From Arenicola marina (Eukaryota > Annelida > Polychaeta > Arenicolidae): a DNA stretch of 64,000 nt. The notes under the pieces are model-generated. The model ran no database searches. It saw nothing but the letters and a program-made list of their open reading frames with translations, and was not told the DNA's origin. Each line of letters opens with the position of its first letter. The stretch's first letter is position 1. The stretch spans positions 47,709,174-47,773,173 of the forward strand of contig OZ025250.1 in the NCBI GenBank assembly GCA_964019135.1. Reading direction: 5' to 3'. This document shows, piece after piece, positions 2,403 to 62,605 of this stretch. Position numbers and translations under genes: made by a program.

Positions 2403-2741
2403 GTGTTGTCGGCCAGGCGACCATCACAACGCCCCCTGAGAACGTGGCGCAGTACGTCGGTGACAACGTCACGCTCGCCTGTGAATTCCAGGAGATTATC
2501 TATGAACTGGTGTGGTCCGAGTGTATCACTACCGCACCAGTCTGTAATGCACTATTCCGAGATGGTACAACCATTCCCGGCCCCCCGATCCCACCTCGTT
2601 ACTCAGTTGTTGACCGCACCGGGACATCCGGGAAGAGATACGACTTTGTCATCACAGGAGTCCAGACAGCTGATGGCGGACAGTTCAGATGTGACAGCAC
2701 AGCTGTATCCGCTCCGGCTTATGCTGAAGTCATTGCGTTAG
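2403..2741 (+). CDS. Exon: V-like Ig domain of paralog A
   Basis: 113 codons, phase 1 at both ends (acceptor TTCTTTCAG, donor GTAAGA). Ig landmarks are the B-strand cysteine in VTLACEF, the C-strand tryptophan in LVWSE, and the F-strand TADGGQFRC, a D-x-G-x-Y-x-C variant with Phe for Tyr. The G strand is AYAEVIALG. A second cysteine pair (SEC...PVC) lies in the C to C-prime region. Joined to the signal exon, the mature N-terminus would start near GQATITTP. Homologous exons are at 36672-37010 and, inverted, 50743-51081, all 339 bp. Confidence 0.88.
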   Translation: MLSARRPSQRPLRTWRSTSVTTSRSPVNSRRLSMNWCGPSVSLPHQSVMHYSEMVQPFPAPRSHLVTQLLTAPGHPGRDTTLSSQESRQLMADSSDVTAQLYPLRLMLKSLR

Positions 2742-5700
2742 GTAAGATAACATAATATACATATAACATCACTACAACAGCGTGTACTAAGATGTTCCGA
2801 GATGGTGACGGGCCTCCCGGCGCCTCACCCCCCGATCCTTATGCCGCTGTCCAACACACCGGTTAACGCGGAGAAAAACACGACTTGGTCAGCCTGGGAG
2901 TTCAGATTGCTGATGGCGGACAGTTCAGATGTGATAACTCAATTACTCCCATTCGGCTTTCTTTCTGGTTTGAGATCCGCCCGACAGTCTCATCATTGAC
3001 CTGAAGTTGTGTTAGGTATGATAAAGTGTATTCAAGCTGAGGTTCTACTACACCCAGACGTATATTATTGGCTTGGCGCTGGAGTATGTTACAATGTATA
3101 CTGACCTCTCATATACTGGAAGTCTTTGTATTTGTGAAGGCCTACCTTACCCTTTCATCACTTCTTTCATTCACTACTTTTCAAGCTTGATTTAGATATA
3201 GATTGATATTTAATATATTTAAAGGGAATCGTAAGATGTTGACCATCTGAAAACATCCGCTGACAACATCTGTCGCGTTGTATCTTTCACAAATCACTCA
3301 CGTTACCACTGACAACATCACTTGCGTCATATCTGTGTTGGCATAATGTACACGTATGGAGGAAACTCAAACGCCATGGCAACGTGATAATATTTACGAT
3401 CAGGCGGTTTTTTTTACCGTAATTTATCCCAGACACAACAGAATACATGTCAAAGTAAGTTTTTTCAACTCTTCAATTCTTCGGGGTCAAATATAAAGTC
3501 CATTCTTCTACGAGCGTCTTTCTACACTATAACCACATTTCTATGTTAATTTGGCACTGTCTCTTCGGAATATAAAATCGGAACGCTTTTTAACACAGTC
3601 ATATGAGGAACGTTTGTTTGGTCTATTCCGGGCACCCCAGTTATAGTGGCCCCAACTGGAGAAACACTCGGTGCACTACGCGCTACGGGGGAACGACTGG
3701 TCGGGTCGGCGGGTGGCGGATGGAGGGGTGGGGGTAGCGACTGATCGGGTCGGCGGGTGGCGACTGGTCGGGTTGGCGGGTGGCGGATGGAGGGTTGGGG
3801 GTAGCGGATGGAGGGTTGGGAGTAGCGATTGGTCGGGTTGGCGGCTGGCGGATGGAGGGTTGGGGGTAGCGGATGGAGGGTTGGGGATAGCGACTAGTCG
3901 GTTTGGCGGGTGGCGGATAGAGGGTTGGAGGTGGCGGATGGAGGGGTGGGGGTAGCGACTGGTCGGGTTGGCGGGTGGCGGATAGAGGGTTGGAGGTGGC
4001 GGATGGAGGGGTGGGGGTAGCGACTGGTCGGGTTGGCGGGTGGCGGATGGAGGGTTGGAGGTGGCGGATGGAGGGGTGGGGATAGCGACTGGTCGGGTTG
4101 GCGGCTGGCGGATGGAGGGTTGGGGGTAGCGGATGGAGGGGTAGGGGTAGCGACTGGTCGGGTTGGCGGGTGGCGGATGGAGGGTTGTGGGTAGCGGATG
4201 GAGGGGTGGGGTAGCGTATGGAGGGTTGGGAGTAGCGATTGGTCGGGTTGGCGGCTGGCGGATGGAGGGTTGGGGTTAGCGGATGGAGGGTTGGGGATAG
4301 CGACTAGTCGGTTTGGCGGGTGGCGGATAGAGGGTTGGAGGTGGCGGATGGAGGGGTGGGGGTAGCGACTGGTCGAGTTGGCGGGTGGCGGATAGAGGGT
4401 TGGAGGTGGCGGATGGAGGGGTGGGGGTAGCGACTGGTCGGGTTGGCGGGTGGCGGATGGAGGGTTGGAGGTGGCGGATGGAGGGCTGGGGATAGCGACT
4501 GGTCGGGTTGGCGGCTGGCGGATGGAGGGTTGGGGTAGCGGATGGAGGGGTAGGGGTAGCGACTGGTCGGGTTGGCGGGTGGCGGATGGAGGGTTGTGGG
4601 TAGCGGATGGAGGGGTGGGGTAGCGTATGGAGGGTTGGGAGTAGCGATTGGTCGGGTTGGCGGCTGGCGGATGGAGGGTTGGGGTTAGCGGATGGAGGGG
4701 TGGGGGTAGCAACTAGGCGGTTTGGGGGTTGGCGGATGGAGAGTTGGGGGTAGCGGATGGAGGGGTGGGGGTAGCGACTGGTCGGGTCGGCGGGTGACGG
4801 ATGGAGGGTTGTGGGTAGCGGATGGAGGGGTGGGGCTAGCGACTGGTCGGATTGGCGGGTGACGGATGGAGGGTTGGGGGTAGCGGATGGAGGGTTGGGG
4901 GTGGCGGATGGAGGGGTGGGGGTAGCGACTGGTCGGGTCGGCGGGTGGCGGATGGAGGGTTGGGGGTAGCGGATGGAGGGGTGGGGCTAGCGACTGGTCG
5001 GGTCGGCGGGTGGCGGATGGATGGTTGGAGGTAGCGGATGGAGGGTTGGAGGTGGCGGATGGAGGGGTGCGGGTAGCGACTGGTCGGGTTGGCGGGTGGC
5101 GGATGGAGGGTTGGAGGTGGCGGATGGAAGGGTGGGGTAGCGGATGGAGGGTTGGGAGTAGCGATTGGTCGGGTTGGCGGCTGGCGGATGGAGGGTTGGG
5201 GTTAGCGGATGGAGGGGTGGAGGTAGCGACTAGTCGGTTTGCGAAGTGGCGGATGGAGAGTTGGGGGTAGCGGATGGAGGGTTGGGAGTAGCGATTGGTC
5301 GGGTTGGCGGCTGGCGGATGGAGGGTTGGGGTTAGCGGATGGAGGGGTGGGGGTAGCGACTAGTCGGATTGGCGGGTGGCGGATGGAGAATTGGGGGTAG
5401 CCGATGGAGGGGTGGGGGTAGCGACTGGTCGGGTCGGCGGGTGGCGGATGGAGGGTTGTGGGTAGCGGATGGAGGGGTGGGGCTAGCGACTGGTCGGATT
5501 GGCGGGTGACGGATGGAGGGTTGGGGGTACCGGATGGAGGGTTGGGGGTGGCGGATGGCGGGGTGGGGGTAGCGACTGGTCGGGTCGGCGGGTGGCGGAT
5601 GGAGGGTTGGGGGTAGCGGATGGAGGGTTGGAGGTGGCGGATGGAGGGGTGGGGATAGCGACTGGTCGGATTGGCGGGTGACGGATGGAGGGTTGGGGGT

Positions 5701-11700: not shown

Positions 11701-14700
11701 GTGATATGACAGAAACAATAATCGAAAAACTGAAATCAAAAAATAGTTGTGGTAAAGACGATATATCAAATTATTGAACGCGATAATGTCGGAAATAAGT
11801 GGTACCCTAACTTTAATAATCAATCAGTCGCTGTCAACAGGCATTTGTCCTAATAAATTAAAAATTGCTAGGGTAGTACCAGTCTTTAAAAGTGGAGAAG
11901 ATGACATCTTCGATAATTATTGGCCCATATCTATATTACCTGCCCTTTTCCAAAGTGCTTGAAAAAATTATCGCAAGCCAAATGTATGAACATTTCCAAG
12001 GAAATATTTTATTAAATAGTAGTCAATATGGCTTAAATCCAAAAGGTTCTACTGAACTTGTCTCAATTGAATTGCCTCAATTAATTTTTTAAAAAATGAC
12101 TAATGGAGATATTCCAATCAATATATATATGGGCCTCTCAAAAGCTTTCGACACGATAAATCATGAATTATTGTTACATAAGTTAAACCATTATGGTGTA
12201 AAAGGCATACCGTTAACACTTTTTGGGAGCTACCTTAGTCAACGTAAACAGTATGTGCAGATTGCGGACACTAGCTCAGAACTTCTTGAAATAACCACGG
12301 GGGTCCCCCCAAGGCTCAATTCTTGGCGGTTTGTTATTCGTCATTGACATTACCGAATATTGCTTGTGCTAGTACTTGTCTAAATATATTATATATGCAG
12401 ATGACACAACGTTAATGAGCACTCTCACGTCATTTATATCTGATTTACCGGATGTAAACCGTAGTGAGGTAATAAATTATGAATTGAACAAAACCAACGA
12501 ATGGCTTAATATCAATAAATTATCATTAAACGCGAAGAAAACAAAATTTATGGTTTTTCACATGCTCGGGAAGAAAATGCAGGTCCCCGATCTCTTTATA
12601 AACAACATCCGTCTAGAACGCGTGGAGGAGTTTAATATGTTTGGCCTCAGAATACAAAGCACTATGAAGTGGCATAGTCACAAAAATAAAATAGCAAACA
12701 AGATCTCAAAGGTAATAGCTATAATGAACAAACTCAAATATACAATACCCGAGCGTACTCTCCAAACAATTTATAATTCACCTGTAGTGCCACACAACAA
12801 TTATTGCATTCTTGCCTGGGGCTACTGTACATCTCGGATCACAAAACTACAGAAAAAAGCTGTTAGGAGAATAACTCTCAGTAAATACTTAAAAAACTAA
12901 ATCTGTAAAAAGGTAGTAAAATGATATTCATCGGCTGCAGCAGCTTAAATTTTACCATAAATTAATTAATACAAACCTGCCACATTACTTCACCCAAATA
13001 CCAACCATACGTAACTCTGATCAACATTCCTACAACACAAGAAATAAGGGACTGGTGTCAATGTTTATATAGTGAAAATAAATGCTCATTGACCTGACCT
13101 AACCTGACTGGTCGGGTTGGCGGGTGGCGAATGGAGGGTTTAGGGTAGCGGATGGAGGGGTGGGGGTAGCGGCTGGTCGGGTGGGAGTAATGATTGGAGG
13201 GGTGAGGGTGTGATGTGGTGTAGCGGATGGAGGGTTGAAGGTTGATTCTGCGCATCGCGACATTTGTTTACTGTTTATCCACCGTTTACACAAGAAAAAA
13301 TGGCAAATAAATATGTGTCCATTATGATTTTTTTATTATCCGTAAGGTTACTTCCTGTAACTGATCATGCCCACAGAACCATTGCTATTAACATGTGTCT
13401 TGCGTTTCTTTGAATCGTTTCGATTCTTTCATTTAGGTTCAGACATGGACTGCTCCAACAACTTGACTTCCGGGTCTGATGTGGAGCTGGGAGGCTTCAT
13501 ATATCTCAGCAGTGAAGTCACACTCCACGGAAGGTGGGCCCCTGTGGCGAGATTCAGATACCCTAACAACACGCTGCTGCCTGGACGGCTAGACGAGACC
13601 AGCGGTGTCACGGCCAAATACAGCGTTGTTTTGGTGGCCGTGAAGAGCCTTGACGAACAGACGCTGTCTGCTGAGTGGTACTTTGATGACGTCACTGGGA
13701 CGGCTACTGGCGAGGCGACTAACACTCCAACCTTCCCTGGGTCAAACACATGCAGCTTTCAGCCGATCACTGTCTTCTGTGAGTATGAATTAAAAGAACA
13801 CAATATAAACTCATGCTGTTCTGTTGGCCATGCTGTCCCGGTGCGCCTTAAGTAGACATTGATACTTCAGCTAGGTATTTGTATAGAAGGTGCAAGCTTT
13901 GATCAGATAAAGCACTGAGTCTATGGTAACCCGTGCATAAAAGAGGTTCTAGCTCAGTACTTCCTGACCGTCGTCGCTATGGTTGCCATGGAGGCCGCTC
14001 AGGTCGGCCCATGCAGCAGCGCCACCTGTGTCTCCAACCACGTGTCTCACTCCACAGCCTCGTGCTGGGCGGCCACGTGGTTCAATCCTAACATAACATA
14101 AGAGCGTAAGTTGATATTGGGACATCACCTTGTTGTTTTGGCTTTCCGGTTGAGCATGCAATATAGTTGGCCGTGGACCACCATGTGACTACTATAGGAG
14201 ACCTGAATGTAGAATCTGGACCGAAACTGGACTGTTTGTGGCGACCGTATCCTCGTCACTATGAAAATCAGTCCGCCTGCAGCGTACAGTGAGAGGGACG
14301 CAAGGGAGATATATGCACCGAGGCGACAGCCGTTCTGAATCGAGCGTTGCTATAGTTACACGATTGATGTAGGTGCGATAAATAGTTCTCATGTGACTCC
14401 ATTTCTGCATCTCTCTCGGCTTGCAGTGAGGGGAACAAGACAAGGGTTTAACATGTCTAAATTACAGTTGCGTTGCATATTCTGAGCACTCGGCGACACT
14501 ATGGTTTTATTGTTGTTTCAGATCCGCCCGAAGGTCTCACCATCGACCCGATACGGGAGAGTTACCACGTGGGTGAGACCATCACGTGTACAGCCGAGGG
14601 TAACCCGGTCCCCGGCATACAGTGGATCAACATGAACGACTGGAGTGTCTCTGTGGACTGTCCCACTGGAGGCTCCTGTCAGCTGGTCGTCTCTCAGGAC

Positions 14701-17700
14701 TGGCTTGGCACCACAGCGACGTATCGCTGTCAACCATGCAACAACTACTTCTCACAGGAGAGATGTATCTCCCAGGATGTAACCTTCAATACGTACAGTC
14801 AGTGACTTAAATTTACTCGTACAGCAATAGTTTTCCTACGAAACGTTTACATTTTAAAAACTGAAATGATGTAGTCTAGTTCTTAGTGTACACTTATTGC
14901 ACATATTATACACAGTAGATGATGTTGCGAGGACACTTTTTGTTCTGAAAAAAAGGTGCATCTTGTGTGGGAATGTGTGGCTTTCTTTTGTACTTAGTCA
15001 TCGACATGCTTGCATATTTCGATAGTATCCATACCTTGTCGTTTTGCAGTCACTACCACGTTCTCTACCACGGCGCCGCCCACCACAACCACCTCAGAGG
15101 TCGCAAGTACCAGTGATCCAAGTGAGACCCTTTACTCCATCTTATCACCAAAGCAGTCCATTAATGTGCCGTAACGCCAATATTTAGCTTATTATCCTGC
15201 AATAACGAGAAATTGGTATGGTTCTATGGGTCACCGATAGCGAGAAATTATTAACATTATATAATACACAGACAACATTACCAGACTCCTTTATTGTACC
15301 ATATCAAGTAAGGTAAGTGGCATTACATGAGAAGTGACTGTCAATAGTTCAGTTACGGGACATACCAACGTTCTGTTGCTCAGTCGAAACCGTTCAGTCT
15401 CGCTGTTGCCTTGCAGACGGCTTCTTTCTGTCGACCGGCGGCTTGGCGGCAATAATTGTCGTCTGCGTTCTCCTGATGCTTGGAAACGTGATTCTCGCCA
15501 TTCTTTATTGGGGGAAACATGGCGAAGGGAAGAACAAAGGTTTGTATGATGTGGAATTGTTTGACAACAGTTATTATATGGATAGGTGCTACCTAAAATG
15601 CGAGCGTATATCTATTAATGCACATATTCAATGGGAACACATGTAGATTAATATTCCAAATAAATCCCATTTCGGCTTCCCATAATGCATATCTTTGGCC
15701 GGATGACGTACATTATGCCACCATGCACGTGCTTGTGGCATCTCAATCGGTTATTCAGGAACTCCCATTGTGATGTGATTTTTATGACATTTTGACGTCA
15801 CAACGACTCAGTATTATAGTCGCGACAAAGTCTCGAATTATCGTTGTTTTCTTAAATCGACAAGTTTCGTTGATACATACATACATGTCTTGCAGTATTC
15901 AATCTTTGACGAAAAAACACGCATGCGTCCATAACAAGCGATCTCTTCCGATTTTCATAGTGGAGGTTGACTTCCACTGGATTTTACAAACACTTAACAG
16001 TATGGCATTTATATAGAGATATTATCATTGTTTGTATGTGTGTGTTATTTAAAGAGCTCGCTTTCGTTCGCTATTATAATCGTATCTTACGTTAACTGTA
16101 TTGCGAGTGGTAATGTGGTTAAATGAGGTCTGTTTCAGACGCAGATTCTGCCTCTATCGAACGGGATGTGACGTGAGTTTCTTCAAATCGTGTAATTCAC
16201 ATTGATCACTAAAAGCAGACACTCTGAGATGAGCAGGATCTATCTGCGTGTGACCTACCACGTATAAATGACCTTAACATGGTTGACATTACCTACTTAT
16301 GGAAGCCAGGTTAGAATAGACTGTTTAGCTATTAGTTGGTGTGTAAGTTAATGTTTCTGGCCTGGTGACTGTTAATGACGGTGATAGCTGTGTGCTCCCC
16401 TTTCCAGATCACCGTCCTACCAGGACATTGCCACCTACGTCAATGTGAGCGGGGGACCGAGGGGGTCTGGGGTTGCCACCCCAATCACCCAACCCGGGTC
16501 TGACCCCTCTGTCAATGTGAGCGGGGCAGCGAGGGGTTCTGGGGGTGCCAGCCCAGTCACCCAACCCGGGTCTGAACCGTACGCTGAGCTGGGTAAGAAT
16601 GACCATAAAAAGATCAAATAACACATATAGATTATCAGGACAGGACAAAACGGCGTTTTGTGATCAATATGGAAGTATTAGGGTCAGGACCACAAAGTCC
16701 GTTAGAAGAACTAACGTTTGATCCAGGCATTTAGGAAGTCTCAAGGTTACTATGTAAGCTGGTTTATTGTTGGCGATCGGTGTGGCCAAATTGTTGGTTG
16801 TGAGTAGTTGTTTCAGTTATTAGATCAATTGGGTGGTCTAATCACAGCTCTGAGCTCATCCATATATCTGTCCAATCGGCGCCGTCGTCCCTTTCTCTGC
16901 TGTGGACGTGTTGGTGACGGTGGACGAGCGATACCATAATTGTATATAAATATATTTTCGTCTTTCCATAGTTGATTTCCACAGATCATGATGGCTTGTG
17001 AGCGACATGGATTTCAGCAATTCCCGAAGTGTGACTGTTATACTCCTTGTTCTTATCTTTACAACGCGTCCTTATATATTATGGTGTTGTGTCATGTTTT
17101 GTGGTTCAATGGAGGTCACAGATAGTATTACGTTGTTATTTTTCAGGCCCCATCCGTGATCCACCCAGGTAAGGATGACTATCAGTCTCTGGTTATTATT
17201 GACATAATGACTCGTGGAGAGAAACACTCGGTCAAAAATCTATTGCATATTGCTCACTGGCGAGATTAATTTAAAGTGCCCCCATTTGTGAAGTGACCCG
17301 CTTGGTACAGCGATCTCCTTTTGTGAAGTGCCCCATCCTGGGTGAAGTGACCCCCCTCTGTGAAGTGACGCCCCTGTGTGAAGTGACCTCCTGTGTGAAG
17401 TGACCTCCCTTTCTGAAGTGACCCCTGTGTGAAGTGACCCCCCTGTGTGAAGTGGCCCACTCTGTGAAGTGACCCTCCTGTGTGAAGTGGACCTCTCTGT
17501 GAAGTGACCCTCCTGTGTGAAGTGACCCCCCTTTATGTAGTGACCACCCATGGTGAAGTGAACCCCCTTGGTGAAGTGACCCCCCTTGGTGAAGTGACCC
17601 CCTCAGTGAAGTGAACCCCTTGGCTTAGTGACCACCTTGGTTAAGAGACCTGCATTTGTAAAGGGATCTTCCTTTGTATAGTGATCTCCCTTTGTGAAGT

Positions 17701-17957
17701 GATCTCCCTTTGTGTAGTGACCTCCCTTTTTGAAGCAACCTTCCTGGTAAATCACCCATGTCACTTCTATATACCGTGTGTACCACATTTATCAATACAC
17801 TCTTGTGAGAATAAACTCAACAAGAAGTTTAATCTGTGTCGAGTTTAATTTGTGTGTGCATCCTCTCTCCTCCAGACTAGTGGAATACGACGTCTTGAGA
17901 CTCCCAGCGGCCAGTGACCTCGACCATGACGTCACACACAATTATATGAACGGCTAG
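2403..17957 (+). CDS. Ig-superfamily membrane receptor, paralog A (multi-exon model)
   Basis: Spliced model with exons 2403-2741, 13437-13778, 14522-14797, 15050-15121, 15417-15539, 16139-16172, 16408-16592, 17147-17168 and 17876-17957. All borders are AG/GT and all phases join in frame to TAG. The signal exon is not in the window; by analogy with 19856-19904 it is 49 bp ending in phase 1. Predicted product about 507 residues: signal peptide, V-like Ig, Ig-like domain lacking canonical cysteines, C2-like Ig, short Thr-rich stalk, TM helix, cytoplasmic tail of about 100 residues. The tail has Tyr motifs YQDI, YVNV, YAEL, VEYDVL (ITIM consensus) and YMNG (YxN). By family knowledge such proteins are cell-surface recognition receptors signalling through SH2 proteins. 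Ligand and role are unknown. It has no internal stop, unlike B. Intron 2 is about 10.7 kb, mostly satellite and LINE. Confidence 0.82.
2785..3020 (+). pseudogene. Decayed Ig exon remnant downstream of V exon
   Basis: The stretch repeats the 3' half of the V exon (CGAGATGGTGACGGGCC, then CTGATGGCGGACAGTTC) but with frameshifts. It then runs into a piece resembling the start of the C2-like exon (GATCCGCCCGACAGTCTC). It ends in TGTGTTAGGTATG, similar to the V-exon donor. The same composite remnant follows the V exon in paralog B (37045-37205) and in E (50478-50710, minus strand), so it predates the duplications. Confidence 0.7.
3021..3679. other. Intron 2 sequence, no gene seen
   Basis: Non-coding sequence conserved in paralog B (37.21-37.87 kb) and, inverted, in E (about 49.8-50.47 kb). 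It ends where the G-rich satellite begins, at GAAACACTCGGTGCACTACG. Confidence 0.6.
3680..9160. repeat. 5.5-kb G-rich composite satellite
   Basis: Made of a roughly 21-bp subunit (GCGGATGGAGGGTTGGGGGTA and variants) combined with a GACTGGTCGGGTTGGCGGGTG block, giving composite units of about 65 bp. The plus strand is extremely G-rich and C-poor. Block lengths are often multiples of three, so long readings such as W-R-V-G-G or H-P-P-P-T appear on both strands; these are repeat artefacts. A higher-order duplication is visible: 5499-5895 recurs almost unchanged at 7527-7923, an offset of 2,028 bp. Smaller relics are at 13.1, 22.6, 31.5 and 53.2 kb. Confidence 0.95.
9161..10139. other. Unassigned sequence between satellite and LINE
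   Basis: No supported gene. The satellite stops abruptly at GGGGTAGCGATCAAG. A pyrimidine-rich tract near 9540-9650 resembles intron-1 pyrimidine tracts elsewhere (52.73-52.83 kb). Part may be the 5' region of the LINE that follows. Confidence 0.4.
10140..11212 (+). pseudogene. LINE apurinic endonuclease region (broken)
   Basis: An opening frame (10140-10541) gives a non-conserved N-terminus, then the endonuclease motifs with Asn in SLNCCSIN and Glu in CLQESW. Reading continues after a frameshift and a stop. A later frame (10847-11212) carries TLPTRISQ, SLIDNMF and ISNHFPYF, the usual end of APE-type LINE endonucleases, where D-H is normally found; the Asp of SDH reads SNH here. This copy cannot make an active nuclease. 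Confidence 0.75.
11203..12900 (+). pseudogene. LINE reverse transcriptase region (broken)
   Basis: Spread over several frames: a linker rich in Lys/Asn, RT motif 1-2 (ARVVPVFKSGEDD), DNYWPISILP, SSQYGLNPKGST, KAFDTINHELL with the first catalytic Asp, TGVPP (in place of G-V-P-Q-G-S), and YIIYADDTTLM with the catalytic Asp pair. The C-terminal stretch NPVVPHNNYCILAWG-like and LQKKAVRRI follow. At least four frame breaks are seen. Confidence 0.8.
13105..13240. repeat. G-rich satellite remnant
   Basis: About two units of the 3.7-9.2 kb satellite (GACTGGTCGGGTTGGCGGG, then GGATGGAGGGGTGGGGGTAG), then degenerate sequence. It suggests the LINE and flanking DNA interrupted a once longer array. Confidence 0.8.
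13437..13778 (+). CDS. Exon: second Ig-like domain of paralog A, non-canonical
   Basis: 114 codons, phase 1-1 (acceptor TCATTTAG, donor GTGAGT). The fold is inferred from the pattern DVELGGFIYLSSEVTLHGRW followed by AP, an aromatic C-strand region, and KYSVVLVAVKSLDEQTLSAE. Positions that would normally carry the B- and F-strand cysteines read Ser (YLSS) and Tyr/Phe (EWYFD). The only two cysteines lie near the ends (MDCSNN and NTCSF). Several N-x-S/T sites are present (NNLT, NNT). The B homologue is 38458-38796. Which Ig subset it belongs to is uncertain. Confidence 0.82.
13779..14521. other. Intron with a conserved decayed block
   Basis: No exon is supported. A stretch at about 13935-14075, including GCCGCTCAGGTCGGCCCATG and GTGTCTCACTCCACAGCC, is well conserved with 39040-39160 in paralog B. 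It could be a relic of another exon or a regulatory element. It contains stops in every frame I tried. Confidence 0.45.
14522..14797 (+). CDS. Exon: C2-like Ig domain of paralog A
   Basis: 92 codons, phase 1-1 (acceptor TGTTGTTTCAG, donor GTCAGT). A classical C2/I-type pattern is visible: PPEGLTIDP, YHVGETITCTAEGNPVPGIQ then W, and LGTTATYRCQPC. Two extra cysteine pairs are possible (VDCPTGGSC; CQPC...RC). The loop VDCPTGGSC is six residues longer in paralog B (39523-39816). Confidence 0.88.
14798..15049. other. Intron between C2-like and stalk exons
   Basis: Non-coding. It is collinear with 39.82-40.31 kb and 41.40-41.93 kb of paralog B. Those copies show that this intron plus the following exon were the unit duplicated in B. 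Confidence 0.5.
15050..15121 (+). CDS. Exon: Thr/Pro-rich stalk of paralog A
   Basis: 24 codons, phase 1-1 (acceptor CGTTTTGCAG, donor GTGAGA). Reads ITTTFSTTAPPTTTTSEVAS then TSDP. This is a short mucin-like spacer, probably O-glycosylated, that lifts the Ig domains off the membrane. Paralog B has three such exons and a further orphan copy lies at 48103-48180. Confidence 0.85.
15417..15539 (+). CDS. Exon: transmembrane segment of paralog A
   Basis: 41 codons, phase 1-1 (acceptor CCTTGCAG, donor GTTTGT). Codes FLSTGGLAAIIVVCVLLMLG, then NVILAILYW, a clear membrane helix of about 23-25 residues. It is followed by the basic stop-transfer stretch GKHGEGKNK, which sets type I topology with the Tyr-motif exons inside the cell. 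Near-identical exon in B at 42233-42355. Confidence 0.9.
16139..16172 (+). CDS. Exon: cytoplasmic tail 1 of paralog A
   Basis: 34 bp between TGTTTCAG and GTGAGT. Phase 1 in, phase 2 out. Reads DADSASIERDVT across the junctions. Conserved exactly in coding length at 42976-43009. Being 34 bp, it cannot be skipped without a frameshift unless a neighbouring asymmetric exon is skipped too. Confidence 0.8.
16408..16592 (+). CDS. Exon: cytoplasmic tail 2 with YQDI, YVNV, YAEL
   Basis: 185 bp, phase 2 in and phase 1 out (acceptor CCTTTCCAG, donor GTAAGA). It encodes two imperfect copies of a roughly 28-residue repeat, V-N-V-S-G-(G/A)-...-T-Q-P-G-S-(D/E)-P. Tyrosines are in SYQDI, TYVNV and PYAEL. 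In the second repeat the tyrosine is serine (DPSVNV), whereas paralog B has DPYVNV. YVNV fits the Y-x-N motif bound by Grb2-type SH2 domains. The function is inferred from motif only. Confidence 0.85.
17147..17168 (+). CDS. Exon: cytoplasmic tail 3 micro-exon
   Basis: 22 bp between a long pyrimidine tract with CAG and a GTAAGG donor. Phase 1 in, phase 2 out. Reads GPIRDPP across the junctions. Sequence is identical at 43984-44005 (B) and 62584-62605 (D), including both splice sites, which supports a real micro-exon. Confidence 0.75.
17275..17745. repeat. Intronic minisatellite, GTGAAGTGACC units
   Basis: Units of about 15-18 bp with core GTGAAGTGACC and a variable CCCCTGTGT or CTCCCTTT spacer. 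It lies in the intron before the last coding exon. The same array occupies the same intron in B (44105-44580) and D (62715-63940). The minus strand reads as G-x-H-F-T-Q-G-G repeats; this is treated as an artefact. Confidence 0.9.
17876..17957 (+). CDS. Exon: cytoplasmic tail 4 with ITIM-like VEYDVL, stop
   Basis: 82 bp from acceptor TCCTCCAG to TAG. Phase 2 in. Encodes LVEYDVLRLPAASDLDHD then VTHNYMNG. VEYDVL matches the immunoreceptor tyrosine-based inhibitory consensus (I/V/L/S-x-Y-x-x-I/V/L), which recruits SH2 phosphatases in other animals. NYMNG gives a second Y-x-N type site four residues from the C-terminus. The B homologue (44779-44860) keeps both motifs. Confidence 0.85.
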
Positions 17958-19855: not shown

Positions 19856-19904
19856 ATGAAGGTGGAGAGCATTGTCGGAGTACTGATTTCTATCACCATT
19901 ACAG
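19856..19904 (+). CDS. Signal-peptide exon, copy 1
   Basis: Reads MKVESIVGVLISITIT plus one base, ending at a GT donor in phase 1, the phase required by the V exons. Joined to a V exon it gives a hydrophobic stretch ending ...GVVGQ, a plausible cleavable signal peptide. The same 49-bp exon occurs at 28596, 46330 and 54326 (minus), and in split form at 24344-27016. The start is chosen because the ATG is conserved in all copies. The next V exon on this strand is 16.8 kb away, beyond two more signal exons, so it may be an orphan or alternative first exon of B. Confidence 0.72.
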
Positions 19905-22845: not shown

Positions 22846-22849
22846 TTCA

Positions 22850-24351: not shown

Positions 24352-26973
24352 CCCAGCCAGCATGGCAACCATCTGCCAACCGTGAAACAACGTTGTCGGC
24401 ATTGTTGGCTCAATGTCGGCAAAGAACATTGGGCCAACGAGTGGGTGCTCATTGGGGAATGATTGTTTCAACGTTGTCTGCCAACAATGGCCCAACCATG
24501 GGCCAACAGTGGGCCAATGTGCGCCGCCGACGTTCTACCGATATTAATCCACTATTGAACCACTGCAAATGTTGTTCACTAATTTATTGACAAAAACCTT
24601 AAAAAGTGCAATACATGAAAAAATCGCTCGTGACCGCTCATATACAGGTGCATGGCCGCTCATAGAGGTGGTCGCTCGTAGATGCGGTCGCTTCCACTCA
24701 TTCCTGATTCTTGCGTTTGCCAGCTGTCACGCTCTCGTCGCCCGTCATCCCGCTTCCCAGCAAATCGCAGCCACTTCTTCACCACCTCTGAATTTGTGGC
24801 GCAACTGGCAGTCGGGTTGCTGCGAGTACCCCCTGAATTAAATCAAAGTAGACTCAATGGCAAAGCTGTTTAAAATATCATGCTGGTCCGATAATATGCA
24901 TGAATAGCATTTACCTATACTGGTATACTTAACACATGTTTTTTGTTAGCTTAATATTTCTCGAACCCTGTTAAAGGCAATACAGTGGTAGCCACATACA
25001 AACTAATGATACTGTTCATAATTTGCAGTTGGCAGGATTTTTTGACAGATCTGTCATATCACATTGAATAGGTAACGCAAATGAGTTAAGTAGACAGTGG
25101 GAAAAGTGGAAATCCTTATCTTATCAGAAGAATACAGCCACACTTACCACACACCACCTGGCGTAAGTTTAGGCGAGGGAATGGCACTTTCCCACTCTTC
25201 CATTGCCAATGTATTTGCTTTGCCACACTGTTTGACAGCACTTAGTCAATCAAACGCTGCACTGCCTTGTCGAAAGTGGATACGCCCATCAAGGTGATGC
25301 TGCTAACCTAATTGGACATATGCAAAATAAAGAGTCAAACTGAAGATAAAATAGACATAAATTAAATTACACAAAGCAATACAAAAACATGGACAAACCT
25401 ATGAGAACTGAAAATGCTGGTCTCTTATTCGTGCATACTTGACTAAAATTGGGTCAGTGGAAGCTTTTGGGGCAACGAAATGATGATGAATGAAATATGC
25501 CCCATATGGGGACCGTCCACTAAACCATGGATGCCTTGATCTCTAGTCCAGTACACTGACCAATAGACTAAGGGGGTTCTCTGAGACTTATATATAGCTG
25601 TGTTTTGTGTGGCCAGGCCTTAACAGCAAAAAACAGTAATCGTTAAATATTACAGCATACCGTTTTCCACATGGTCTCGTCATTAGCGAAGACCTCGTCC
25701 AATCTGTGTAGGGCGTCTACGGTCAGGATGGGGAAGGGCATTCCATCTGGCGGAGGGGTAGGCGTGCAAGTCATGTTGAGATGCTGGCAAATTTTGCCAA
25801 GCATCACACCATTGTGCTCCTGCTGCGGTTGCACGCGCTCCAAAGCGTGCAGGAGGGCAATATCATACTCTGTCACTGTCAATGACATTTAAACAGACTG
25901 TAAAACAAACTGTGAACAGCATATTGTTATAGGTAACACTATAACCACTTGGCCTAACTAAATAAAATGATCTCTTAGTTCCACGAGAAAATGATTCATA
26001 TCAACATAGAAGTTCAGAATGCATCGGCAGATATATGGTTCTGACCACCCACCCAGATACATGTTCTCTATATTTGTCTACACCCTTCTTCTTTTGGACC
26101 AATAGGAATAATCCATTTATATTTTCCATAATTATGTGCCTTGTTTCATAAGAGGCGGATACATGATATAAATTGGCCATTTCCCAATTCAGAGTTATTT
26201 AATATTAAAATTCCCAGTTCACGATTAATGAAAATACTCGATCACTGCGGTCGGCTAATATCCCATTCCCAGTTCACGAAGAATTATTTTCCTCATTCCC
26301 AGTTCACAGTGAAATGAAAAGCCCATTCCCGAGGAACGGAAATATCCCTTGCCCCATCCCTAATAAGTTTAATGACATCAAAACCTTCAGCCAGGGGCAG
26401 GCTAGCTAGTCAAACACTGTGGTAAGATTAAATTAAATCGTTTGAAGTGCTATTCAAGCCTTCACCTGCCCATGGCTAAAGGTTTTGCACTGGTTTGACA
26501 GTGTTTGATTTTAAGAAAAAGAGCTCCAAAAAAGCTAGGCACTCGTGTGAGCGATAATGCAGGATAGGCCAGAAACTGCATACTCAGTGACCGTTTTCTT
26601 CCGCTGTACCATTATATTACAGTTCTAATTAAGTCAGTGCATAAATTACATAATCCGATACTATAAAACAGACCGACGAGACAATAATAATGCGCCAAAT
26701 GAATCAAAATCTCAAAATTCACGATAACTTACAGTCACTTGGAAGATTGCCGCATGAAAGTGGCGCTTCAAAAACTCGCTAGATGGCGCTGTGTTTTGCG
26801 CTAACGGCACTACGCTGGTACGTAGGCGCAATGTTGGGCCAACATTCCATTGCCAACGGTTGGGTGCAGAGCGCAGATGACGGTCGGTATTACGTTGCGC
26901 CTATGTATACTAGCAAACGGTTGCGTTGCCTACCTAAAAACAACGTTGGGCCGATAATGCCATGCTGGCTGGG
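24352..26973. mobile_element. DNA element with terminal inverted repeats inside a signal exon
   Basis: Left end CCCAGCCAGCATGGCA and right end TGCCATGCTGGCTGGG are perfect inverted repeats of 16 bp. Subterminal regions of both ends carry several copies of a TTGGGCCAACATTG-like palindrome. The host exon shows that only GT (2 bp) is duplicated at the ends. No recognisable DDE transposase is visible; one small minus-strand ORF is a weak accessory-protein candidate. The superfamily is not assigned. It is likely a non-autonomous or decayed cut-and-paste element. Confidence 0.75.
25643..25888 (-). CDS. Small ORF within the TIR element, possibly DUF4806-like
   Basis: 81 residues with GMPFPILTVDALHRLDEVFA near the C-terminus. 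This resembles the start of DUF4806-type domains, which often accompany DNA transposons in invertebrates (a P-x-x-T...L..L...L pattern). The frame ends soon after, so it would be a fragment or an exon: a CT-rich stretch and possible splice sites exist but are not decisive. It could equally be a chance ORF. Confidence 0.3.
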   Translation of the reverse strand: MSLTVTEYDIALLHALERVQPQQEHNGVMLGKICQHLNMTCTPTPPPDGMPFPILTVDALHRLDEVFANDETMWKTVCCNI

Positions 26974-27016
26974 GTGGAGAACATTGTCGGAGTACTGCTT
27001 TCTGTCACCATTATAG

Positions 27017-27580
27017 GTGGGTGTGATATATCAACTGATCTGTCACCATTATAGGTGGGTGTGATATATCAACTGGTCTGTCACCATTATAGGTGGGTGT
27101 GATATATCAACTGGTCTGTCACCATTATAGGTGGGTGTGATATATCAAGTGGTCTGTCACCATTATAGGTGGGTGTGGTTTATCGACTGGTCTGTTACCT
27201 TTATAGGTGGGTATGATATATCAACTGGTTTGTTACCTTTACAGGTGGGTGTGATATACCAACTGGTCTGTCTCCATTATAAGATAGGTGTGGTATATCA
27301 ATTGGTCTGTCTCCCCATTATAGGTGTGTGTGATATATCAACTTGTCTCTGTCACCATTATACGTGGGTGTGATATATCAACCGGTCTCTCTCACCATTA
27401 TAGGTGGGTGTGATATATAAACTGGTATCTGTCACCATTATAGGTGGGTGTGATATATCAACAGGTAGTCTCCTTTATAGGTGGGTGTGATATTCCAACT
27501 GGTTTGTCACCATTATAGTTGCGTGTGATATATCAACTATTCTGTTTCCATTATAGGTGGGTTTGATATATCGACTGGTA
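27017..27580. repeat. Intron-1 minisatellite, copy 2
   Basis: About 15 units of the GTGGGTGTGATATATCAACT type, beginning immediately after the donor of the split signal exon. The first units are almost perfect copies of each other, suggesting recent expansion next to the exon. Confidence 0.92.
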
Positions 27581-28595: not shown

Positions 28596-28644
28596 ATGAA
28601 GGTGGAGAGCATTGTCGGAGTACTGCTTTCTATCACCAGTATAA
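28596..28644 (+). CDS. Signal-peptide exon, copy 3 (probable exon 1 of paralog B)
   Basis: Reads MKVESIVGVLLSITSI plus one base. The donor is ATAA/GTGGGT rather than ATAG/GTGGGT. Phase 1, compatible with 36672. Intron 1 would be 8.0 kb and contains minisatellite, Gypsy remnant and an antisense LINE. Confidence 0.68.
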
Positions 28645-36671: not shown

Positions 36672-37010
36672 GTGTTTTCGGTCAGCCAACCATCACAACC
36701 CGCCCTGAGAACGTGGCGCAGTACGTCGGGAACAACGTCGAGCTCCCTTGTGAACTTGAGGAGAGTACCTATGACCTGCTGTGGTCCGAGTGTGTCACTA
36801 ACCAACCAGCCTGTAATACACTATACCGAGATGGTGGAGTCATTGGCGGCGCTTCACCCCCGGCTCGTTACTCAGTTGTTGACCGCACCGGGCCATCCGG
36901 GAAGAGATACGACTTGGTCATCACAGGAGTCCAGACAGCTGATGGTGGACAGTTCAAATGTGATAACGGATTTAGTCCCGCTCCAGCGTATGCCGAGGTC
37001 ATTGTGTTAG
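36672..37010 (+). CDS. Exon: V-like Ig domain of paralog B
   Basis: 113 codons, phase 1-1 (acceptor GTTCCTTCAG, donor GTAAGA). Cys in VELPCELEE, Trp in LLWSEC, F strand TADGGQFKC, extra pair SEC...PAC. Differences from A cluster in the segment after the first Cys (EESTYDL against QEIIYEL) and near the end (NGFSPAPAYAEV against STAVSAPAYAEV). These are loop regions that would face a ligand in V domains. Confidence 0.87.
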   Translation: MFSVSQPSQPALRTWRSTSGTTSSSLVNLRRVPMTCCGPSVSLTNQPVIHYTEMVESLAALHPRLVTQLLTAPGHPGRDTTWSSQESRQLMVDSSNVITDLVPLQRMPRSLC

Positions 37011-38457: not shown

Positions 38458-38796
38458 GTTCAGATAAGGAGTGCTCCAACAACTTGACTTCCGGGTCTGA
38501 GGTGGAGCTGGGAGACTTCATATATCTGAGCAGTGACGTCACATTCTACGGAAGGTGGGCCCCTGTGGCGACATTCAAATACCCTAACCGCACGGTGCTG
38601 CCTGGACGGGTTAACGAGACCAGCGGTAACACGGCCAAATATAGCGTTGTGTTGGAGGCCGTGAAGAGCCTTCAAGGACACACGTTGTCTGCTGAGTGGT
38701 ACTTTGACGTCACCGGGACGGCTACTGGCGAGGCGACCAACACTCCAACCTTTCCTGGGTCAAACACCTGCATCTCTTAAGCGATCACTGTCTTCT
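38458..38796 (+). pseudogene. Exon: second Ig-like domain of paralog B, with stop
   Basis: 113 codons, phase 1-1. Same non-canonical pattern as A (DCSNN-like start ECSNN, IYLSSDVTFYGRWAP, AEWYFDVTGTATG, NTC). A TAA at 38778-38780 ends the frame six codons before the donor. The codon is CAG in A. One codon (Asp) is missing relative to A in WYFDDV. Confidence 0.8.
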
Positions 38797-39522: not shown

Positions 39523-39816
39523 ATCCGCCCGAAGGTCTCACCATCGACCCGATACAGGAGAGTTACCACGTGGGTGAGACCATCACGTGTACAGCCCAGG
39601 GTAACCCGGCCCCTAGCATACAGTGGATCAACATGAACGACTCGAGTCTCGCTGTGAATTGTGCCCCTGTGACTGAAGACGCCCCCGTAAACAACTGTCA
39701 GCTGGTCGTCTCTCAGGACCGGCTTGGCACCACAGCGACGTATCGGTGTCAACCCTGCAACAACTACTTCTCACAGGAGAGATGTATCTCCCAGGATATA
39801 ACCTTCAATACGTACG
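39523..39816 (+). CDS. Exon: C2-like Ig domain of paralog B
   Basis: 98 codons, phase 1-1 (acceptor TGTTGTTTCAG, donor GTCAGT). Matches A except for a six-residue insertion (VNCAPVTEDAPVNNC in place of VDCPTGGSC) between strands, plus scattered substitutions. Cys-Trp-Cys Ig core intact (TITCTAQGNPAPSIQW, TATYRCQPC). Confidence 0.87.
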
Positions 39817-40313: not shown

Positions 40314-40406
40314 TCACTACCACCTCCTCTACCCCCGTGCCGCCCACCACAACTACCACCACCACAACCACCACCACCACAGAGGCCACAAGTACCAGTG
40401 ATCCAA
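40314..40406 (+). CDS. Exon: Thr-rich stalk 1 of paralog B
   Basis: 31 codons, phase 1-1 (acceptor CGTTTTACAG, donor GTGAGA). A run of ACC/ACA codons gives TTTTTTTTTTT, a coding CCA/CAC microsatellite likely to vary in length between alleles. Flanks match stalk 2 and 3. Confidence 0.8.
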
Positions 40407-41931: not shown

Positions 41932-42003
41932 TCACTACCACCTTCTCTACTACCGCGCCGCCCGCAACAACCACCACAGAGGTCGCAAGTACCAGTGATC
42001 CAA
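41932..42003 (+). CDS. Exon: Thr/Pro-rich stalk 3 of paralog B
   Basis: 24 codons, phase 1-1. This is the copy most like the single stalk exon of A (TTTFSTTAPPATTTTEVAST), so it is probably the ancestral one. Stalks 1 and 2 are additions. Confidence 0.8.
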
Positions 42004-42232: not shown

Positions 42233-42355
42233 ACCGCGTCTTCCTGTCGACCGGCGGCTTGGCGGGAATAATTGTCGTCTGCGTCCTCTTGTTGATAGGA
42301 AACGTGATTCTCGCCATTCTTTATTGGAGGAAACATGGCGAAGGGAAGAACAAAG
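42233..42355 (+). CDS. Exon: transmembrane segment of paralog B
   Basis: 41 codons, phase 1-1. Helix GLAGIIVVCVLLLIGNVILA then ILYWRKHGEGKNK. Trp-Arg-Lys in place of A's Trp-Gly-Lys strengthens the stop-transfer charge. Confidence 0.88.
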
Positions 42356-42975: not shown

Positions 42976-43009
42976 ACGCAGATTCTGCCTCTATCGAACG
43001 GGATGTGAC
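42976..43009 (+). CDS. Exon: cytoplasmic tail 1 of paralog B
   Basis: 34 bp, identical coding content to 16139-16172. Acceptor CCATCTCAG, donor GTGAGT. Confidence 0.78.
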
Positions 43010-43244: not shown

Positions 43245-43429
43245 ATCACCGTCCTACCAGAACATTGCCACCTACGTCAATGTGAGCGGGGGACCCAAGG
43301 GGTCTGGGGGTGCCACCCCAGTCACCCAACCCGGGTCTGACCCCTACGTCAATGTGAGCGGGGCAGCGAGGGGTTCTGGGGGTGCCAGCCCAGTCACCCA
43401 ACCCGGGTCTGAACCGTACGCTGAGCTGG
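43245..43429 (+). CDS. Exon: cytoplasmic tail 2 with two YVNV motifs
   Basis: 185 bp. Codes SYQNI, TYVNV, DPYVNV and PYAEL in two 28-residue repeats. It keeps the second YVNV that is SVNV in A and D. Phase 2 in and 1 out, as in A. Confidence 0.84.
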
Positions 43430-43983: not shown

Positions 43984-44005
43984 GCCCCATCCGTGATCCA
44001 CCCAG
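43984..44005 (+). CDS. Exon: cytoplasmic tail 3 micro-exon of paralog B
   Basis: 22 bp, same sequence and splice sites as 17147-17168. Confidence 0.74.
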
Positions 44006-44778: not shown

Positions 44779-44860
44779 ACGGGTGGAATACGACGTCTTG
44801 AGACTCCCAGCGGCCAGTGACCTCGATCATGACGTCATAAACAATTATATGAACGGCTAG
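44779..44860 (+). CDS. Exon: cytoplasmic tail 4 of paralog B, ITIM-like, stop
   Basis: 82 bp from TCCTCCAG to TAG. Encodes RVEYDVLRLPAASDLDHD then VINNYMNG. The ITIM-type VEYDVL and the YMNG site are retained despite the upstream stop, which is unexpected if the gene has long been dead. Confidence 0.82.
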
Positions 44861-46329: not shown

Positions 46330-46378
46330 ATGAAGGTGGAGAGCATTGTCGGAGTACTGCTTTCTGTCACCATTATAG
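46330..46378 (+). CDS. Signal-peptide exon, copy 4
   Basis: Reads MKVESIVGVLLSVTII plus G, donor ATAG/GTGGGT. An intact copy of exon 1, but no V exon follows on this strand in the window. The next plus-strand exon is an orphan stalk at 48103. Likely stranded by rearrangement. Confidence 0.68.
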
Positions 46379-48102: not shown

Positions 48103-48180
48103 TCACTACCACCTCCTCTACCACCGTGCCGCCCACCACCACCACCACCGCCACAGAGGTCACAAGTACCAGAGATCCAA
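48103..48180 (+). pseudogene. Orphan Thr-rich stalk exon
   Basis: 26 codons, phase 1-1, with intact acceptor CGTTTTACAG and donor GTGAGA. Codes TTTSSTTVPPTTTTTATEVT. There are no partner exons on this strand before 62584, so it is probably unused. Confidence 0.65.
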
Positions 48181-50742: not shown

Positions 50743-51081
50743 CTAACACAATAACCTCGGCATACGCTGGATTGGGAACAACTGTGTTTTCACATTTGAA
50801 CTGTCCGCCGTCCGCTGTCTGGACTCCTGTGATGACCAAGTCATATCTTTTCCCGGATGTCCTGGTGCGGTCAACAACTGAGTAACGAGGTGGGGGCGAA
50901 GCGCCGCCAATGACTGCACCATCTATGTATAGTGCACTACAGACTGGTGCGTTAGTGATACACTCGGACCACGGCAGATTATAGACACCTGCCTGTAATT
51001 CACAGACGAGCATAACGTTGTCCCCGACGTACTGCGCCACGTTATCAGGGGGGGTTGTGATGGTCGCCTGTCCGACAACAC
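50743..51081 (-). CDS. Exon: V-like Ig domain of paralog E
   Basis: 113 codons on the minus strand, phase 1-1, acceptor TTCCTTCAG and donor GTAAGA. Core kept: VMLVCELQ, LPWSEC, TADGGQFKC, AYAEVIVLG. The C-strand Trp context is LPW rather than LVW/LLW. Open throughout. Together with the minus-strand signal exon at 54326-54278 it makes a two-exon gene start without the rest of the receptor in the window, so its status is uncertain. Confidence 0.78.
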
Positions 51082-54277: not shown

Positions 54278-54326
54278 CTATAATGGTGACAGAAAGCAGT
54301 ACTCCGACAATGCTCTCCACGTTCAT
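54278..54326 (-). CDS. Signal-peptide exon, copy 5 (paralog E)
   Basis: Minus strand, reads MNVESIVGVLLSVTII plus G, donor ATAG/GTGGGT, phase 1. The next minus-strand exon is the V exon at 51081-50743, 3.2 kb away, consistent with a real gene start. Lys2 is Asn in this copy. Confidence 0.7.
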
Positions 54327-54760: not shown

Positions 54761-54764
54761 GCAA

Positions 54765-61000: not shown

Positions 61001-61690
61001 CGGGCGGCCCTTACCCTAAAGGCAGGTTAGGCTGCGGGTGAAAAAGAGGGTACCTAATCCTGACCCCAACCCAACCCTGACCGTAGTCGACACCCTACGC
61101 CTGAACCCTAAAGATAGTACTCATGTGGCCTTGACAGAGCGGGCGGCCCTCACCCGAAATGCAGTTGAGGCGGCGGGTCCAGAGGGTACCCAACCCTGAC
61201 CCCAACCCAACCCTGAATGCAATGTACACCCTACGCCTGGACCCTAAAGATGGTAATGATGTGGCTTAAGAGAGCGGGCGGCCCTTATCCACATAGGAGG
61301 TGAGGCGGCGGATGAAAAAGAGGGTACCTAACCCGGACCCCAACCCAAACCCTGAGCACAATCTACCCCCTATGCCTAAACCCCTAAACATGTTAATCAT
61401 GCGGCCTTGACAGAGCGGGCGGCCATTGGCCGAAAGGCACGTGAGGCGGCTGGTGGAAAAGAGGGTACCTAACCCTGACCCCAACCCAAACCCTGAGCCC
61501 AATTTACCCCCTATGCCTGACACCCTGAAGATGGTAACGATGCGGCTTTCAGAGAGCGGGCGGGCCTTCCGCAAGAATGAGGCGAGGCGGCGGGTGAAGA
61601 GGGTACCTAACCCTGACCCCAACCCAAACCCTGAGCCCAATTTACCCTCTATGCCTGACACCCTAAAGATGGTAACGATGCGGCTTTCAC
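58061..61690. repeat. 136-bp satellite with telomere-like CCCTAA motifs (about 26 copies)
   Basis: Unit GGTACCTAACCCTGACCCCA, ACCCGACCCCGAGCGCAATC, TACCCCCTGTACCTAAACCC, TAAGGATAGTACTGATGTGG, then CATTGACAGAGCGGGCGGCC and CTTACCCGAAAGGCAGGTTA. At least three unit subtypes alternate (GTAGTCGACACCCTACGCC, AATGCAATGTACACCC, GAGCGCAATCTACCCC), suggesting a higher-order repeat of about 400-550 bp. The last units (61.35-61.69 kb) are more diverged. It joins the 70-bp satellite directly at 58061. Confidence 0.95.
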
Positions 61691-61693
61691 AGA

Positions 61694-62098
61694 GCCGTTC
61701 TGTCCTGTCCTGATATACATGTGGTATGTGATCTCTTTACGGTCATTCTTACCCAGCTCAGCGTACGGTTCAGACCCGGGTTGGGTGACTGGGGTGGTCC
61801 CCCCAGCCTCCCCCGCTCCCCCGCTCACATTGACGGAGGGGTCAGACCCAGGTTGGGTGTCTGGGGTGACACCCCCAGCCCCCCTCGCTCCCCCGCTCAC
61901 ATTGACGTAGGTGGCAATGTTCTGGTAGGACGGTGATCTGGAAAGGGGAGCACACAGCTATCACCGACATTAACAGTCACCAGGCCACCGACATTAACAG
62001 TGACCAGGCCTCCAACATTAACCGTAATGACCGTAACGAGATCACATATCACATAGAGATATCACATATAATATCTGGACAGGACAGAACGGTATTTT
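61694..62098. repeat. Inverted repeat pair flanking the paralog D tail exon
   Basis: CCGTTCTGTCCTGTCCTGAT at 61694 is the reverse complement of sequence ending 62098 (GGACAGGACAGAACGG). The adjoining GTATGTGATCTCTTTACGGT (61728-61747) is inverted relative to ATGACCGTAACGAGATCACA (62027-62046). Between them lies the inverted exon and three or four short units of ACCGACATTAACAGTCACCA type (61961-62025). Confidence 0.82.
61753..61937 (-). CDS. Exon: cytoplasmic tail 2 of paralog D, inverted
   Basis: 185 bp on the minus strand with acceptor CTTTCCAG and donor GTAAGA intact. Reads SYQNI, TYVNV, DPSVNV, PYAEL with the repeat form GGARGAGGVTPDTQPGSDP. No stop. It is in the opposite orientation to the next exon of the same paralog (62584-62605, plus), so it cannot be spliced into it as assembled. 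In A and B these exons are co-oriented. Confidence 0.75.
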
Positions 62099-62583
62099 GT
62101 GATCATATGGGAGTACTGGGATCAGGCACACGAAGCCCGTTAGAAACAGTAACGTTTGATCCAGGCATTTAGGAAGTCTCAAGGTTACTATATAAGCGGT
62201 TTTATTGTAAACATTCGGGGATCGGTGTGGCCAACTGGTTGGTTGTCATCGGCTGTTTCGGTTATTAGATCAAATGGATTGTTCAATCACAGCTCTGAGT
62301 ATCCATATATCTGTCCAATCGGACCCGCCGTCCCTTCTCGCGGCTGTGGACGTGTTGCTGATGTGCGATAAATGTCTGTATATATATATAGATTTTCGGT
62401 TTTACATAGTTACTGTGGTTGACTTCCACAGATCATGGTGACATGGCTTACGACAATCCCCGAAATGTGACTGATGTATTCCATGTTCTCTTATTCGTAA
62501 AGCGTCCTTATATATGATGGTGTTGCATCATGTTTTGTGGTTCGATGGAAGTCACAGATATTATTACGTTGCTATCTTTTCAG
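62099..62583. other. Intron before tail 3 exon, paralog D
   Basis: Plus-strand sequence collinear with 16.64-17.15 kb and 43.48-43.98 kb. No other feature. Confidence 0.55.
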
Positions 62584-62605
62584 GCCCCATCCGTGATCCA
62601 CCCAG
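62584..62605 (+). CDS. Exon: cytoplasmic tail 3 micro-exon of paralog D
   Basis: 22 bp identical to the A and B micro-exons, with TTTTCAG acceptor and GTAAGG donor. The following terminal exon would lie right of the window. Confidence 0.65.

Follow-up and report, generated by a model that had tools for sequence, protein, structure and literature searches.

Introduction

A few animals are known to have clustered variable immunoglobulin (Ig) receptors whose tails bear tyrosine motifs: cnidarian Alr, tunicate FcoR and vertebrate paired receptors. The passages of the literature used here give 41 Alr genes for the allorecognition complex of Hydractinia (PMC11999971) and report immunoreceptor tyrosine-based inhibitory and activation motifs (ITIM and ITAM) on candidate Alr members (PMC12065747). 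They describe the Botryllus FcoR proteins, with 53 loci, as type I proteins of 520-610 amino acids (aa) with a V-type Ig domain first, C2 Ig, a transmembrane (TM) segment and a long tail with tyrosine motifs (PMC12065747), an organisation like that of the locus analysed here, which lies on contig C3 of the annelid Arenicola marina. Among lophotrochozoans, oyster CgIgIT2 is presented as an Ig receptor that has tyrosine motifs in its tail and signals through ERK, and a title of the reference list calls it inhibitory (PMC11999971). For the annelid Olavius algarvensis, a table of pattern recognition proteins includes novel transcripts of the V-set (nine) and I-set (16) types (PMC5117596, Table 1). 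No annelid family of such a kind is described in the literature searched (mostly titles), the nearest being this table entry; the passage of PMC10192322 that was retrieved does not mention immunoglobulin.

The window, by which we mean the whole stretch of 64,000 nucleotides (C3:47709174-47773173), had originally been predicted to hold parts of at least four paralogs of an Ig receptor gene with one exon per domain and a signalling tail. We compared it with its surroundings (264 kb in total, the window and 100 kb on either side) and searched the genome of 867 Mb in 762 contigs. The explanation that we favour, and consider fairly probable, is a family of single-pass surface receptors that expands in tandem and serves recognition, with proposed binding by the loops of the V domain and proposed Src/Grb2 signalling by the tail.

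Organisation of the gene family

A comparison of the paralogs gave a gene plan of signal exon, V exon, an atypical middle domain, an I-set (C2) Ig domain, a Thr-rich stalk, a TM exon and four tail exons (T1-T4). The exon order recurs within the 264 kb in five copies of the same orientation upstream of the window (G1-G5) and in two copies inside it (A and B), although a stalk was not found in G3 or G4, nor a T3 in G4; with this recurrence and the many V matches on C3, the arrangement is far from chance. The V, second-domain, C2, stalk and TM exons are of phase 1-1, and AG and GT sites stand at the implied places with frames that are free of stops bar a few, so that the predicted exon-per-domain layout is borne out. 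The exon model search itself required phase 1-1 splice sites, and stops were counted separately: the phase-1 frame is stop-free in 9/9 V, 8/9 second-domain and 8/9 C2 models, and the ninth C2 exon, that of copy I, carries its GT donor at the corresponding position.

Spliced models without internal stop and with all splice sites present were obtained for G1, G2 and G5 (10 exons; 511, 507 and 513 residues, stop symbol excluded) and for G3 (nine exons, no stalk found; 531 residues). The models of G4 and H are incomplete or faulty, and G4, whose C2 exon likewise carries a GT donor where its paralogs do, may be more intact than its broken model. Downstream of the window lie F (signal and V exons), H (no recognised signal or V exon) and I, which runs off the end of the fetched stretch and has lost its TM acceptor (TG).

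In the window itself, A and B each have the full series of exons starting with V, D and E are sets of fragments, and no member is intact. Its outermost features, at 2403 and 62605, are the start of the A V exon and the end of the E T3 exon, as predicted, and of the four proposed paralogs A and B are full from V on, whereas D and E are rearranged fragments. The exons of A and B have AG/GT splice sites, with open frames apart from B domain 2, and are as follows.

2403..2741, plus strand: A V exon, phase 1-1 (AG/GT sites; Pfam Ig_3 1.2e-4 and V-set 0.02, both under cut-offs)
13437..13778, plus strand: A second extracellular domain ("Ig2"; splice sites; present in nine modelled copies; no significant Pfam/PDB match)
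14522..14797, plus strand: A C2/I-set Ig exon (splice sites; Ig_3 3.3e-4, under cut-off)
15050..15121, plus strand: A Thr-rich stalk exon (splice sites, paralog models)
15417..15539, plus strand: A transmembrane exon (splice sites, paralog models)
16139..16172, plus strand: A tail exon T1 (splice sites, paralog models)
16408..16592, plus strand: A tail exon T2, composed of two units of 24 aa, SPSYQDIATYVNV...EPYAEL (splice sites, paralog models)
17147..17168, plus strand: A tail exon T3 (splice sites, paralog models)
17876..17957, plus strand: A tail exon T4, stop codon included, LVEYDVL...HNYMNG* (paralog models)
28596..28644, plus strand: signal exon closest upstream of B, last base before the donor changed (paralog comparison)
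36672..37010, plus strand: B V exon (splice sites; Ig_3 9.4e-6 and V-set 7.7e-5, under cut-offs)
38458..38796, plus strand: B second-domain exon, in-frame TAA near the 3' end (splice sites, translation)
39523..39816, plus strand: B C2/I-set exon (I-set above the curated Pfam cut-off)
40314..40406, plus strand: B stalk exon, with extra stalk-like copies at 40975-41046 and 41932-42003 (splice sites, paralog models)
42233..42355, plus strand: B transmembrane exon (splice sites, paralog models)
42976..43009, plus strand: B T1 (paralog models)
43245..43429, plus strand: B T2 (paralog models, T2 reading)
43984..44005, plus strand: B T3 (splice sites, paralog models)
44779..44860, plus strand: B T4, RVEYDVL...NNYMNG* (paralog models)

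A and B have every exon from V to T4, but the signal exon nearest to A lies outside the window, 4.3 kb upstream, and has an in-frame TAG directly after MKV, and B has its TAA near the end of domain 2. B is the sole full-length domain-2 match with a stop among 35; one short fragment also has a stop. These window copies have the look of members in decay, in a cluster where other copies are still open.

The genome search for further copies showed a family larger than first described. Of the 41 matches to the V exon, 27 are near-complete (query itself counted; 59-100% identity), and every one of these sits on C3, in groups at 6.9-8.1, 41.5, 44.6-44.95 and 47.58-47.87 Mb, the window lying in the last group. 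No stop codon was seen in these 27 or in the two next longest. Corresponding numbers were 35 for the second domain, 44 for C2, 23 for TM (all on C3), 31 for T2 and 20 for T4; matches include fragments, and the genome counts are lower bounds. The V exon of D and that of copy F, at +84 kb, are 96% identical in protein sequence. The existence of a gene family is nearly certain.

Two divergent relatives have the order V, domain 2, C2 at about 1 kb spacing. The first is a gene at C1:56774030-56776382 in which V is seemingly split by an intron and the second domain contains a Cys that none of the cluster copies read has; the second, at C3:51.33 Mb, lies inside C2-like matches at 51.20-51.36 Mb, and its C2 exon runs on into a 763-residue open Ser/Thr-rich stretch. 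Given that the order is kept in both, it is probably older than the clusters. Tails were not recognised for either relative in the 10 kb examined for each.

Identity of the extracellular and transmembrane domains

A profile of nine V exons (seven cluster copies and two divergent relatives) matches antibody light-chain variable domains (VL) in the PDB, the best at 1.7e-14, and single V exons match Ig_3 and V-set under the Pfam cut-offs. The V landmarks are Cys (strand B), Trp (C) and D.G...C (F), and both Cys and the Trp are present in 25/27 copies, with one Cys missing each in G1 (the second Cys) and in one further copy (L033). By sequence the first ectodomain is a V-type Ig domain. The third exon likewise qualifies as an I-set/C2 Ig domain by sequence, its profile (five sequences) matching I-set proteins in the PDB, best 3.9e-9, with neurofascin, Robo and NCAM2 closest.

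The V and C2 labels of the original prediction thus found profile matches, whereas "Ig-like" for the second domain did not. No Pfam match was obtained for this domain of A and B; six members gave chance-level scores, the best being PKD at 0.06 in one of the six, and the best PDB hit of the domain profile (0.64) was not significant. With hhalign there was no convincing alignment to the V and C2 domains of the family itself (probability 3.4 and 0.2). Since neither significant matches nor such an alignment exist, we do not call the second domain Ig. No charged TM residue was found in the 10 copies read of the 23 TM matches.

Variation in the V domain

Substitutions in the 27 V exons were counted by parsimony on a FastTree tree, and the loops were set as residues 27-36, 45-63 and 97-105, placed by the Cys and Trp landmarks. 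The ratio of nonsynonymous to synonymous change (dN/dS) was 1.02 in the loops and 0.50 in the rest of V (Fisher's exact test, p = 2.8e-5), with 0.72, 1.29 and 0.96 for the loops like complementarity-determining regions (CDR) 1, 2 and 3, respectively, and 0.68 for the whole of V. Entropy was also higher in the loops (1.30 versus 0.64 bits, p = 7.8e-6; 25/27 V exons, two near-duplicates dropped). The V sequences are related and not independent, and the p values serve as guides. Pairwise dN/dS among 8-9 copies from this cluster, damaged copies included and with corrected C2 ends of G4 and I, was 0.99 for V, 0.77 for the second domain, 0.57 for C2 and 0.51 for TM.

In some pairs the 3' exons differ far less than V does, a pattern suggestive of exchange among copies: for G2 and A, dS is 0.05 in the second domain and 0.19 in V, and the T2 proteins are identical. 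The predicted character of the locus, a duplicating cluster of recognition type, agrees with the 27 near-complete V exons on C3 and with the concentration of change in the V loops. Such loop change, together with a birth-and-death structure, makes it likely that the family serves recognition.

The cytoplasmic tail

The tail exons T1-T4 read ...SPSYQNIATYVNVSGG...EPYAEL, GPIRDPPR, RAEYDVL...HNYING. T2 is built of a 72-bp coding repeat (24 aa), often with YVN, and has one unit in H, two in most copies, three in one copy (L060), four in G3 and 21 in a copy at C3:41.4947-41.4963 Mb. In this longest T2 (C3:41494698-41496248), 517 residues are open between the AG acceptor and the GT donor, and 20 units have DPYVN. 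The T2 exons compared were all 18 distinct places found and one partial copy. PYAEL is present in 19/19; of the 18 with a 5' end, 15 have TYVN and 16 have YxN at the first tyrosine. A C-terminal YxN is found in 8/9 T4 exons read. The 7-8 Mb subfamily was not recovered by the T2 and T4 searches, and in 2/2 of its copies read PLYQNMATYVN and PYEEL are kept (read by eye, splice sites unchecked), with G or S at +3. Given that N is kept at +2 while +3 is G or S, this subfamily fits Grb2 (pYxNx) better than ITIM.

The Grb2 SH2 domain binds pYxNx, and pYVNV is its site on Shc, according to the passage of PMC10968029. By motif the tail is a putative Grb2-docking tail, and YxN (Grb2-type) motifs and PY(A/E)EL are better conserved than ITIM. 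The tail is tyrosine-rich, as predicted; the "ITIM tail" as a shared feature was rejected. Strict ITIM ([SILV]xYxx[ILV]) occurs in T4 of only 2/9 copies (A and B, VEYDVL), the rest having A at -2 (AEYDVL or AKYDVL), and no other strict ITIM was found in eight spliced tails.

These data also bear on the idea of an ITIM-ITAM allorecognition system like Hydractinia Alr or Botryllus FcoR, with a tail that would recruit SHP/SHIP (by ITIM) or Syk (by an ITAM-like YAEL-x11-YDVL), which we regard as rather unlikely. VEYDVL of A and B matches the ITIM consensus, and the ITAM spacing range is 6 to 12, within which falls the distance of 11 residues between YAEL and YDVL after splicing of T2, T3 and T4 in 6/8 spliced tails and in G3 with a revised T2 end, but not in the G4 tail as modelled. 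Against it stand the A at -2 in seven of the nine T4 exons and the lack, in the 10 TM segments read, of a charged residue for an adaptor partner. Annelids are also mostly solitary. ITIM, hemITAM and core motifs on FcoR tails and ITIM/ITAM on candidate Alr genes are on record in the available passages (PMC12065747) and speak for such a system.

Signal exons, fragments and repeats

The remaining exons of the window are given below.

19856..19904, plus strand: signal-peptide exon between A and B, no own V exon seen (paralog comparison)
26969..27017, plus strand: partial signal exon (paralog comparison)
46330..46378, plus strand: set E signal exon (end from paralog comparison, start from exon length)
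48103..48180, plus strand: set E stalk exon (paralog comparison)
50743..51081, minus strand: D V exon (splice sites, V search)
54278..54326, minus strand: D signal exon (paralog comparison)
61753..61937, minus strand: T2 exon, inverted relative to T3 (T2 search)
62584..62605, plus strand: E T3 exon, with T4 just beyond the window at 64128 (splice sites, paralog comparison)

D consists of signal and V exons on the minus strand, and E of plus-strand pieces (signal, stalk and T3) and a minus-strand T2; E T2 and T3 as parts of one gene were rejected, lying on opposite strands. The signal exon, 49 bases long (MKVESIVGVLLSVTII-G) with conserved sequence upstream, was identified by comparing copies; a hydrophobicity scan within 2 kb of A or D gave no convincing signal exon. 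From position and hydrophobicity the first exon is signal-like. A 38-bp minisatellite begins at the splice donor of this exon, with the donor as its first unit, and at least three matching units follow 10/13 signal exons in the 264 kb; this minisatellite, which repeats the donor sequence, occupies 19896-20854, 27001-27579 and 28640-29689.

Several copies have a decayed second V-like exon directly downstream of V (2780-2950, 37099-37191 and 50528-50635). An open frame continues beyond the TM exon donor at 15540-15646 (A) and 42356-42462 (B), GLYDVELFDNSYYMDR..., a candidate intron-retention tail. With open reading frames judged by eye, long interspersed element (LINE)-like elements with reverse-transcriptase motifs were seen at 10100-12900 (plus strand) and 32070-36560 (minus strand), the second adjoining the B V exon, and three related RNase H-like retrotransposon fragments at 21176-21508, 27827-28090 and 29933-30196. 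Very large tandem repeat arrays cover 3703-9154, 55238-58058 and 58057-61695. A search of Rfam gave no match.

Elsewhere in the genome, two more T4-like matches (81%) lie outside the known clusters at C3:35882738 and 36004367, and another dense cluster of PF00047 Ig matches, at C20:20.43-20.78 Mb, is absent from the V, domain-2, C2, TM, T2 and T4 matches of the family. The mitochondrial contig C762 (15,942 bases) is open under code 5, and ARAGORN found five tRNAs in mitochondrial mode and none in bacterial mode. Its order is nad3, trnS(UCU), nad2, cox1, trnN, cox2, trnD, a short atp8-like frame, trnY, trnG and a cox3-like start, the gene names except cox1 and the tRNAs being read from translations; we take this order to be the annelid ground pattern, and by it the genome appears annelid.

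Discussion

If these genes encode recognition receptors, the V loops would bind varied ligands, which may be microbial, self or gamete. Receptor clustering would lead a Src-type kinase to phosphorylate the tail, PY(A/E)EL might then dock a Src-type SH2 domain, and the YxN motifs could recruit Grb2/drk and thereby Ras-ERK. The number of T2 units (1 to 21, some without tyrosine) would set how many adaptors are bound per receptor, and new specificities might arise via duplication and exchange between copies. A more tentative extension, possible but clearly less probable than the reading as a whole, is that the receptors carry an expandable signalling scaffold of their own in which a coding minisatellite in the tail varies the number of YVN Grb2-type sites, so that ligand specificity (V loops) and signal gain (repeat number) evolve independently through duplication in an annelid system for discriminating self or microbes.

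Several observations weigh against the recognition and Grb2 proposal. The dN/dS of the loops is about 1 and not clearly above it, the loop boundaries were chosen with a sliding-window scan already in view and hence not blind, and exchange between copies distorts dN/dS counts. In the tail, the first YxN is absent from 2/18 T2 exons and TYVN from 3/18, the tyrosine of the second unit is gone in many T2 (e.g. DPSVNV, DPHVNV), and later units are often without tyrosine outside the long array. Conservation of Y and N across the 20-unit array was rejected as an argument for selection: the array is so young that its codons are identical, and its conserved tyrosines thus show no selection.

Less probable than an ITIM-ITAM system is a neuronal or tissue adhesion family that labels cells by its many copies (Dscam- or cell adhesion molecule-like) and has no part in immunity. 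The C2 profile is indeed nearest to Ig domains of neural adhesion and guidance proteins, but the V domain is antibody-like, the duplication unit is the whole gene and not alternative exons, and the broken copies, the inversions and the focus of change on the loops are suggestive of a recognition locus under birth-and-death evolution. Receptors for gamete recognition or mate compatibility are highly improbable; fertilisation proteins typically change their binding surfaces rapidly, as such receptors would, but so many copies are, to our knowledge, unusual for such systems. The least probable account is that the array is mostly dead, its pseudogenes persisting through segmental duplication and having little function today. 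In its favour, every one of A, B, D, E, F, G4, H and I is damaged, lacks parts or has an incomplete model; against it, four nearby copies are open with all splice sites, and the 27 near-complete V matches and the two next longest lack stops.

A family of this type in an annelid would extend clustered, variable Ig receptors with tyrosine-motif tails to another branch, and the locus would be testable for a part in annelid graft rejection or in symbiont or pathogen recognition. If true, the gain and loss of adaptor sites by tail repeat expansion would be an unusual tuning of signal strength.

The predicted parallel to Hydractinia Alr is one of organisation, sequence homology being no part of the comparison. 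The phylum is different, no Ig model matches the middle domain of the present genes, strict ITIM is rare, and the tail abounds in YxN and carries a repeat of 24 aa. FcoR has a sushi domain and two C2 domains, whereas the present genes have one middle domain and one C2, and a Pfam search of the second exon gave no sushi match. Oyster CgIgIT2 has five Ig domains, and the review passages do not describe a clustered hypervariable family; the Olavius V-set proteins are known from their table entry, the passages giving no architecture, clustering or tail. Vertebrate-type paired receptors include activating partners with a charged TM segment and a short tail; the TM segments read here, 10 of 23 matches, have no charged residue. 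Dscam-hv carries mutually exclusive exon arrays in one gene, whereas here whole exon sets repeat, the only extra exons seen within copies being the decayed second V-like exon and additional stalk and signal exons. LAT has Grb2 docking sites. With Shc the family shares YVNV / pYxN docking of Grb2 (PMC10968029, in the passage available), but here the sites would be on the receptor itself and their number varies by repeat expansion.

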